51,467 bases of DNA from Nitrososphaera sp. (GTDB lineage Archaea; Thermoproteota; Nitrososphaeria; Nitrososphaerales; Nitrososphaeraceae), in contig QCWB01000002.1 in assembly GCA_013114715.1 (NCBI GenBank), forward strand, positions 1 to 51,467. Direction: 5' to 3'. A model generated the notes under the pieces. It had not been told where the DNA came from, did not search any database, and worked only from the letters and a program-made list of their open reading frames with translations. Position 1 is the stretch's first letter; the number at the start of each line of letters is the position of its first letter. Position numbers and translations under genes: made by a program. Positions 43,578 through 45,380 of the stretch are shown here, in pieces.

Positions 43578-44420
43578 TCACATTCTATGGCCGGCCAACA
43601 ATTCATCACAAAATAGATAATCGTTATTTCTTAATTTCTGCAGGAATAACGGCAATTGTTCATAATCCAAAGAATAGTTGCAATTTAGTCTAGGGTTGAC
43701 TCTTGGATCAGAATGTATGCCTATAGAGATCCCCGCTTTCGCAAACGCAGGATTGTCATTCTCTAAATCGCCCAGATACAGTATCCCACTTTTCTCAATG
43801 TATTTCAATTCGGTCATAACACAATCAAATCCTCTTCCCTTATCGCATTTTATCGCATAGACGTCTAGAAAGGGATGGGAGTGGTATGTCTGAAGGTAAA
43901 GACAATTCGGAAAGTATGGTTCGTACGGTAGCGCCTTTTTGACATATTCTGTGATTAATTTTGAATATTCCTTCCAGTCTTTGATATCCCTCCAGTCAAA
44001 AGTCACTCCAGCAAGAAACCCTTCCGATGTAAATTTCCTTTCAACCATTATGTCAGGGAATCTTGAAATGACGTCTTCAGATAATTTCTCGAGTGCCTTT
44101 GCACTTTTAATCAAAGTGCTGTTCTCATAAAGCATACGGTGATCCTTGATTTTAGGACGGACATCGCTGCTTTTGTCCATTACAAGGGTTTCAATTCCCA
44201 TTATACATGAAATGATACCAGCGAACTGAACACGAGGAGAAAGAAACCAGTAATCCTTGCTTGAGAGGATGCAAATCGGTATCTCTTTTGATATCTCTTG
44301 TAGAATCTCTTCCAACCTTCTAGGTACCATGTTTTGATCTTTTATTCTCATGTTACCCGTAGGACACAGAGTACCATCGTAATCCGATATTATTGCAAAA
44401 ATCTTCTTGCGATTAATCAT
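43578..44420 (-). CDS. HAD-superfamily phosphatase in the fluoride operon
   Basis: This 280-aa HAD protein (Cof/TPP class) has motif I DYDGTL (catalytic Asp), motif II LSSKD, the Lys in CDKGRGFD and motif IV GDLENDNPAF. The large cap resembles trehalose-6-phosphate or mannosyl-3-phosphoglycerate phosphatases. Its ATG overlaps the DUF190 stop (ATGA), so it is the third gene of a crcB-DUF190-HAD operon behind a fluoride riboswitch. The substrate is unknown. Confidence 0.85.
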   Translation of the reverse strand: MINRKKIFAIISDYDGTLCPTGNMRIKDQNMVPRRLEEILQEISKEIPICILSSKDYWFLSPRVQFAGIISCIMGIETLVMDKSSDVRPKIKDHRMLYENSTLIKSAKALEKLSEDVISRFPDIMVERKFTSEGFLAGVTFDWRDIKDWKEYSKLITEYVKKALPYEPYFPNCLYLQTYHSHPFLDVYAIKCDKGRGFDCVMTELKYIEKSGILYLGDLENDNPAFAKAGISIGIHSDPRVNPRLNCNYSLDYEQLPLFLQKLRNNDYLFCDELLAGHRM

Positions 44421-44746
44421 AGTGCATATACTTCTTGAACTGTTATCAGTCCATTATCAGCCACCATCGCCTTTAGGGGTATAAGCAAAGGCTCCAGTTT
44501 TGATTGCTCGTCTACCACCTCTATAACCAATGGATGGTTTATTGAAATGCCTTCTATGTGAAGTGTAGAACGTCCTCTCCTGCCAAACCCATCTACTGCG
44601 TTAATTACTGTGGCTCCCAGTATCCCATTTTTCATCAGAAAGTCTAACAGGGCGTTGAAGAGTCTCTTGCCTTCCAATAGGTCGTTCTTTTTTATTCGTA
44701 TGGTAAGACACCACATTTTCATCTTTACCATGCTATTATTCTCCAC
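44417..44746 (-). CDS. DUF190 (PII-like) protein linked to CrcB
   Basis: This 109-aa DUF190 protein has a ferredoxin-like fold related to PII, with KMWCLTIRIKKNDLL, GILGATVINAVDGFGRRG and VIEVVDEQ. DUF190 genes often sit beside crcB and are thought to help fluoride export or its regulation. It overlaps crcB by 11 bases and the HAD gene by 4. Confidence 0.88.
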   Translation of the reverse strand: MENNSMVKMKMWCLTIRIKKNDLLEGKRLFNALLDFLMKNGILGATVINAVDGFGRRGRSTLHIEGISINHPLVIEVVDEQSKLEPLLIPLKAMVADNGLITVQEVYAL

Positions 44747-45125
44747 CTCCTCTCAGAATAAGATTCATCACAAGTCTGCCTCCAATTACCGCACCTATTG
44801 AGAGGCCTACATTGGCCAGGATGTTTATTCCAGCGTTTGCAATATACCGGTCTTCAAACATCTTGGTTGTTTCCAGTGCAAATGAAGACATTGTTGTCAG
44901 TGAACCGCAAAACCCAATCGCCACAAGCAGAGAATATTTGGAATCAAGGTTCCAAGCAAAAGTCAAGACGGAAAATATTCCCAAAATGAAACTTCCAATG
45001 GTATTTACAATTAGGATGTTTATTGGCAAGGTTCCAAAGAGCAAAGGCGAAGACGCCATCTTGTAGCGTAGAAAAGCGCCTGCAACGGCTCCTATGGCCA
45101 GAAATACAAATTCAATTCCTTTCAT
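44736..45125 (-). CDS. crcB: CrcB/Fluc fluoride channel
   Basis: This 129-aa membrane protein with four helices has the Fluc motifs IVNTIGSF (about 39-46) and GFCGSLTTMSSFALE (about 72-86). Fluc dimers are highly selective F- channels that lower cytosolic fluoride. It is the first gene of the operon, and the start codon lies just after the riboswitch expression platform. Confidence 0.94.
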   Translation of the reverse strand: MKGIEFVFLAIGAVAGAFLRYKMASSPLLFGTLPINILIVNTIGSFILGIFSVLTFAWNLDSKYSLLVAIGFCGSLTTMSSFALETTKMFEDRYIANAGINILANVGLSIGAVIGGRLVMNLILRGGGE

Positions 45126-45127
45126 TT

Positions 45128-45221
45128 TGCCTACCCTTATTTTTCAATTCTGGTAGGCATTATCAGCTCCTCTGAAAAAGGGCGGTTCTGGATTCTATTC
45201 CAAGGCTAATGCCATAGCCGA
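45128..45221 (-). promoter_or_regulatory. Fluoride riboswitch (crcB motif) with RBS-masking switch
   Basis: On the minus strand the leader reads GGCTATGGCATTAGCC (45204-45219), an extra small hairpin, then ACCGCCC and CTGATAATGCCTACC (ending at 45152). This fits the crcB motif: the first stem, then CUGAU followed by a strand that pairs with GGCAU. The 3' strand TGCCTACC is exactly complementary to GGTAGGCA (45128-45135) just before the crcB ATG. Fluoride binding would trap the first partner and free the RBS region. A TATA-like TTTAAA at about 45240 fits a start near 45220. Confidence 0.8.
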
Positions 45222-45380
45222 CATAAAATATACCGCTAAATTTAAAAATATATCGTTTTTCGGTACCTACCTTGTAAGGGATAAACCGCCATTGAGACAC
45301 AATTCACATGATGGTATTGTTTTTCCTTATCCTTTGCTTTTGGCAGCATCTTCTACGCGTACTCCCTGCAGGAGTATTTT

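Follow-up and report, generated by a model that had tools for sequence, protein, structure and literature searches.

The window, a stretch of 51,467 nucleotides from a soil-type ammonia-oxidising archaeon of the genus Nitrososphaera, carries a riboswitch-bearing leader on its minus strand, between a glutamine synthetase ORF (46864-45401) and crcB. The crcB gene apparently forms an operon with genes for a DUF190 protein and a HAD-type phosphatase, the frames being overlapping or adjacent. Its ATG (45125) lies 21 nt after the aptamer match, which places the element in the 5′ UTR of a fluoride-toxicity gene. An earlier sequence-only reading of this DNA had assigned the element to a crcB leader, and the Pfam identification of the ORF directly downstream agrees with it. 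The features discussed below are as follows.

45237..45248, minus strand: TATA-like box TTTTTAAATTTA, predicted from the sequence to be the promoter; P1 follows about 29 nt downstream.
45147..45228, minus strand: fluoride riboswitch aptamer, full RF01734 model; Rfam match.
45204..45219, minus strand: P1 stem-loop GGCU-AUGGCAUU-AGCC; pairs in 100% of cells, 43 relatives.
45213-45209 with 45160-45156, minus strand: pseudoknot of the P1 loop strand GGCAU with AUGCC, 5 bp; 99.5% of cells paired, 43 relatives.
45189..45202, minus strand: additional small hairpin UGGA-auagaa-UCCA, inserted between P1 and P2 when aligned to the Rfam model.
45166..45187, minus strand: conserved junction and P2, AACCGCCC...GAGC; from alignment to the Rfam model and relatives.
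45152..45159, minus strand: UGCCUACC, the strand common to both states; its UGCC pairs in the pseudoknot, its full 8 nt in the masking helix.
45128..45135, minus strand: masking (switch) strand GGUAGGCA; exact complement of UGCCUACC, conserved and covarying in relatives.
44736..45125, minus strand: crcB, Fluc-type fluoride exporter, 129 aa; PF02537, E 5.9e-22.
44417..44731, minus strand: DUF190 protein (COG1993), gene 2 of the apparent operon; PF02641, E 1e-20.
43578..44420, minus strand: HAD-type phosphatase, gene 3, overlapping the DUF190 stop; PF08282, E 2.3e-7.

In another genome of the same genus (G170:C10), a HAD phosphatase gene has a fluoride riboswitch of its own.

When the whole window was searched with Rfam, the sole match was RF01734, the fluoride riboswitch, at 45228-45147 on the minus strand. 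At 43 bits (E 1.1e-8) this match exceeds the gathering score of 34, and it covers model positions 1-64 of 64; a genome-wide scan with RF01734 returned the same copy at E 9.4e-11. The sequence-only reading had recognized a fluoride aptamer here and had named this search as a check on it. Both its identification and its location stand, while its 5′ limit has to be moved, as the Rfam match begins at 45228, 7 nt upstream of the end given there. In the window copy, P1, the pseudoknot and almost every conserved position are retained, and P2 (GCCC 45183-45180 with GAGC 45169-45166) has one C-A mismatch. Among the 43 relatives, the pseudoknot pairs show G-C to A-U changes. The small TGGA/TCCA hairpin (45202-45189) that had been picked out by eye is present and recurs among relatives with compensated pairs; its two central pairs are retained in nearly all of the 43, with a few G-C to A-U double changes. 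The element shares P1, P2, the pseudoknot, the conserved 3′ strand and a position in the crcB 5′ UTR with the published RF01734 or crcB motif (Weinberg et al. 2010, PMC2864571), and the association of that motif with DUF190, HAD, antiporter, MutS and Hyf-type genes is seen in relatives. It differs by the extra short hairpin between P1 and P2 and by its expression platform, which is a start-region hairpin rather than a terminator. The window element is a member of RF01734, and we infer that it would bind Mg-complexed fluoride.

Downstream of P2, TGCCTACC (45159-45152) and GGTAGGCA (45135-45128) are exact 8-bp complements, just as the sequence-only reading had described for the 8-base 3′ strand and the sequence before the ATG. 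In the RNA, GGUAGGCA ends 2 nt before the crcB AUG and the 8-bp hairpin spans positions -3 to -10, so that this alternative helix would cover the start region and, through the common UGCC, is incompatible with the aptamer fold. That reading had all 8 bases of the 3′ strand serving both states; the dual use is borne out, but only AUGCC (5 bp) pairs in the aptamer and the two states share UGCC. ViennaRNA gave -13.2 kcal/mol for the switch hairpin (z -3.9, with 0 of 200 shuffles equally stable) versus about -8 kcal/mol for the pseudoknot duplex alone, the pseudoknot and fluoride being outside its scoring. The complementarity of the 3′ strand to its own leader was matched by 0.3% of mononucleotide-shuffled leaders.

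A comparison of this leader with those of relatives had also been proposed, and in it the switch pairing recurs. RF01734 matches were found in 71 (about a quarter) of 300 genomes sampled from the class; the flanks of 91 matches were taken and each aptamer 3′ strand was compared with its own leader. Comparable aptamer-leader pairing was present in about 65 of 71 related loci. In families f1, f2, f11 and f14, the leader strand beside a start codon is typically GGUGGGCA or GGUAGGCA where the aptamer has UGCCUACC, and GGUAGACA where it has UGUCUACC. In a plain MAFFT alignment of 43 dereplicated, diverse leaders, fitted to no structure, the switch helix was paired in 95.9% of cells versus 30-50% for slid controls. 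Three of its pairs were changed on both sides, and the covariation score was reached by 0 of 500 shuffles, a signal to which relatedness contributes in part. We therefore swapped leaders within families and found that own leaders pair better than swapped ones, with 0 of 5000 permutations reaching the own-leader mean.

At one position the two states are tied together three ways, with G/A in the P1 loop, C/U in the aptamer 3′ strand and G/A in the leader. The aptamer column holds C in 22 leaders and U in 21, and with the leader partner these form C-G (21), U-A (18), U-G (3) and a single C-C (Fisher P 7.5e-9 for the C/U versus G/A table, kinship uncorrected). This three-way change links the pseudoknot to the masking helix through a single strand that has two mutually exclusive partners; the alternative pairing proposed from the window by itself is thus kept, and covaries, in several families of the class. 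Judged by these comparisons, the leader complementarity is not due to chance. One could still suppose that the aptamer is real and that the complementarity arises incidentally from a conserved G-rich start region, with no switching, since the leader strand in relatives partly resembles motifs complementary to the 16S tail (AGGU, GGUG) and ribosome binding alone could conserve it. However, the leader base tracks its aptamer partner (C-G versus U-A) and further pairs vary in concert, neither of which is expected from ribosome binding, and own leaders outdo swapped ones within families. We consider this explanation highly improbable.

The switch helix is mostly absent from families f4, f18 and f20 of the class in the leader comparison. 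A universal archaeal switch helix was rejected, as these three mostly go without it and so do most other sampled Thermoproteota families. In family f40 (Thermoproteota), an analogous CCTATCTC/GAGATAGG helix stands before the ATG, with the same logic in other letters.

Several features bear on which step is controlled. In 72 related loci, A/T-only octamers are most frequent ~30 nt before P1, and the TATA-like box at about this distance suggests that transcription probably begins at the aptamer itself, at or near its 5′ end. The sequence following the hairpin, AAAATGAAAGG, contains no U-run, and no intrinsic terminator was found in the platform. With a transcript that probably starts at the aptamer and no U-run after the hairpin, control of translation fits best. 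A palindrome-like site, GGTAGGTACC, lies at 45271-45262 on the minus strand, upstream of the TATA-like box, and has GGTAGG in common with the switch strand; it is possibly a protein-binding site or a chance occurrence.

In the transcriptional fluoride riboswitches of Bacillus cereus and Thermotoga petrophila, as in the window, the platform competes for the aptamer pseudoknot strand (PMC11077080). The B. cereus pseudoknot forms with or without fluoride, and the platform displaces it unless it is locked by fluoride (PMC11077080). Because the window shares this invading-strand logic with a terminator switch (PMC11077080), and because many crcB motifs of other organisms coincide with predicted terminators (PMC2864571), the aptamer might instead act on transcription, with the alternative hairpin causing premature termination or RNA decay as in B. 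cereus. In the bacterial examples, however, the invading strand is part of an intrinsic terminator, whereas that of the window ends 2 nt before the start codon and has no U-tract behind it; a terminator-type platform was rejected on this ground. The helix also stays close to the start codon in relatives, as would be expected if the start region were its target, and we regard control at the level of transcription as unlikely. The translational fluoride riboswitches of Pseudomonas syringae and Burkholderia pseudomallei, employed as controls of that type in PMC13273304, are bacterial; from their description, they share with it the lack of intrinsic termination.

How a masked start region would block initiation depends on the use of Shine-Dalgarno (SD) pairing. 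Within the 51-kb window, matches to SD 4-mers at -16 to -3 were found for 11 of 49 ORFs, versus 9 and 6 at control positions. The 16S rRNA is incomplete in this genome's assembly, and the tail GGAUCACCUCCU was read from one same-genus relative, having been located in two. Against this tail the masked strand of the window is a poor, GGGU-type partial match; in many relatives, the switch strand contains AGGU or GGUG motifs that can pair with it. The seemingly weak SD use and the poor match make steric masking more likely than the hiding of a strong SD, and here initiation would have to be blocked by occlusion of the start region.

Taken together, the family match, the exact complementarity, the covariation and the lack of a terminator lead us to consider it highly probable that a cis-acting RF01734 riboswitch controls crcB translation by strand exchange. 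Without fluoride, the aptamer 3′ strand UGCCUACC would be captured by GGUAGGCA just upstream of the AUG, and the 8-bp hairpin would bar ribosome access. Mg-bound fluoride would lock the pseudoknot between the loop GGCAU and AUGCC and leave the GGUAGGCA strand single, so that CrcB, followed by the DUF190 protein and the HAD phosphatase, could be translated. The direction of this predicted switch, OFF without fluoride and ON with it, follows the B. cereus logic with a start-codon hairpin replacing the terminator. Exporter production would thus very probably be turned on when fluoride is present.

A further sample of 80 crcB loci from named genomes, selected solely on similarity of the CrcB protein, was scanned with a covariance model built from P1, P2, the small hairpin between them and the switch helix. 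Strong full-length matches of 65-102 bits were found at 14 of the 80. L118, L119, L120, L121, L130, L157 and L179 apparently come from genomes also in the training alignment; L125, L152, L153, L159, L166, L181 and L185 apparently lie outside the training set and retain the helix, L166 with a mismatch. Most of the remaining loci were without the element in this search, in line with a published estimate that about 15% of Flucs are under riboswitch control (PMC11139923). Some Nitrosopumilus and Nitrosarchaeum crcB leaders (L127, L175, L142 and L158) resemble decayed riboswitches in which P1 or the switch strand is degraded; with weak full-model matches of 20-28 bits and degenerate leaders, they were rejected as working switches. 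L143 (19 bits) has a similar degenerate look in the alignment.

Such degenerate versions, together with the mismatch in P2 of the window copy, raise the question of whether the window riboswitch is itself decayed and non-functional, with fluoride binding lost and crcB constitutive. This is very doubtful, as P1, the pseudoknot and nearly all conserved positions are kept and the copy scores 107.6 bits with the full model, although the window sequence belongs to the training set of that model. The same genome moreover holds a second RF01734 copy (G000:C86), which fronts a second crcB.

Beyond crcB, the same cassette of aptamer and switch helix fronts many genes in family f2. A syntenic island of ~25 kb carries 6 copies in one genome (G087:C37:50001-78000, L032-L033) and 8 in another (G186:C57:22001-52000, L034-L035). 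Its genes encode DUF190, universal stress, HAD, Hyf/Nuo-like complex, TFB, TIR-like, Lrp and secreted proteins; a Pfam match confirms enolase in G087, and G186 has crcB (by sequence) and MFS. DUF190, HAD, enolase, universal stress protein, the Hyf/Nuo-like complex and crcB are among the listed contents of fluoride regulons (PMC11139923), a correspondence that supports fluoride as the ligand in this lineage. In L034, L049, L055 and other f2.g18 loci, the riboswitch with the same switch helix lies directly before secreted cupredoxin-domain proteins, and in f2.g18 loci it also precedes a ~390-aa secreted protein family without a Pfam match; such a riboswitch is sometimes the only copy found in the genome.

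In several f1 loci (L016, L020, L022, L043, L062, L064 and L071), a short ORF starts from an AUG within or immediately behind the switch helix, and its stop codon runs into the next start (AUGA); the same overlap is seen in f2 crcB leaders such as those of G015, G097, G252 and G298. This arrangement suggests translational coupling, but about one-third of upstream AUGs would give AUGA by chance because TGA is built into ATGAAA starts. The crcB leader of the window has no upstream AUG, and the overlap does not apply to it. At L018 (G263:C59) and L026 (G262:C157), the crcB frames seem to start with ATT or ATA in place of ATG, immediately past the switch helix. In other Thermoproteota families (L089-L117; f23, f27, f32 and others), many riboswitches front a protein of ~280-300 aa with the conserved motif RQNDDGGYTF, rather than crcB; we take this protein to resemble a terpene cyclase or prenyltransferase. 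Tentatively, and with somewhat less than even confidence, we suggest that in ammonia-oxidising archaea the aptamer and start-masking helix form a cassette copied before about ten gene families (crcB, Na+/H+ antiporter, Hyf/Nuo-like complex, cupredoxins, TFB, Lrp, MFS and others). In many copies the controlled AUG may belong to a short leader ORF with a stop codon that overlaps the true start (AUGA), so that fluoride would act through translational coupling and a wider regulatory cascade.

The crcB motif has been known from both bacteria and archaea since 2010, in association with mutS, transport and formate hydrogen lyase genes (PMC2864571). One natural archaeal riboswitch has been studied experimentally, a fluoride-responsive and presumably translational one tested in Thermococcus (Speed et al. 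2018, AEM 84:e02306-17, via PMC8241225 and PMC11077080); as the citing papers describe it, it resembles the window element in being archaeal and in the fluoride response and translational action that are predicted here. Archaeal fluoride riboswitches, a translational one included, are thus already published. The earlier emphasis on their rarity outside bacteria must be softened accordingly, given also that about a quarter of the class genomes sampled here have the family. A limited literature search found no paper on fluoride riboswitches in Thaumarchaeota or Nitrososphaeria, and what seems undescribed is that such a switch is conserved in Nitrososphaeria and has spread to other genes, as in the islands of 6-8 copies.

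Natural archaeal riboswitches have very rarely been tested, and RNA control of initiation in archaea with little SD use is poorly known. Since covariation defines both states of the proposed switch to the base-pair level, single and compensatory mutants would allow a clean test. The finding also points to a fluoride regulon in ammonia oxidisers.
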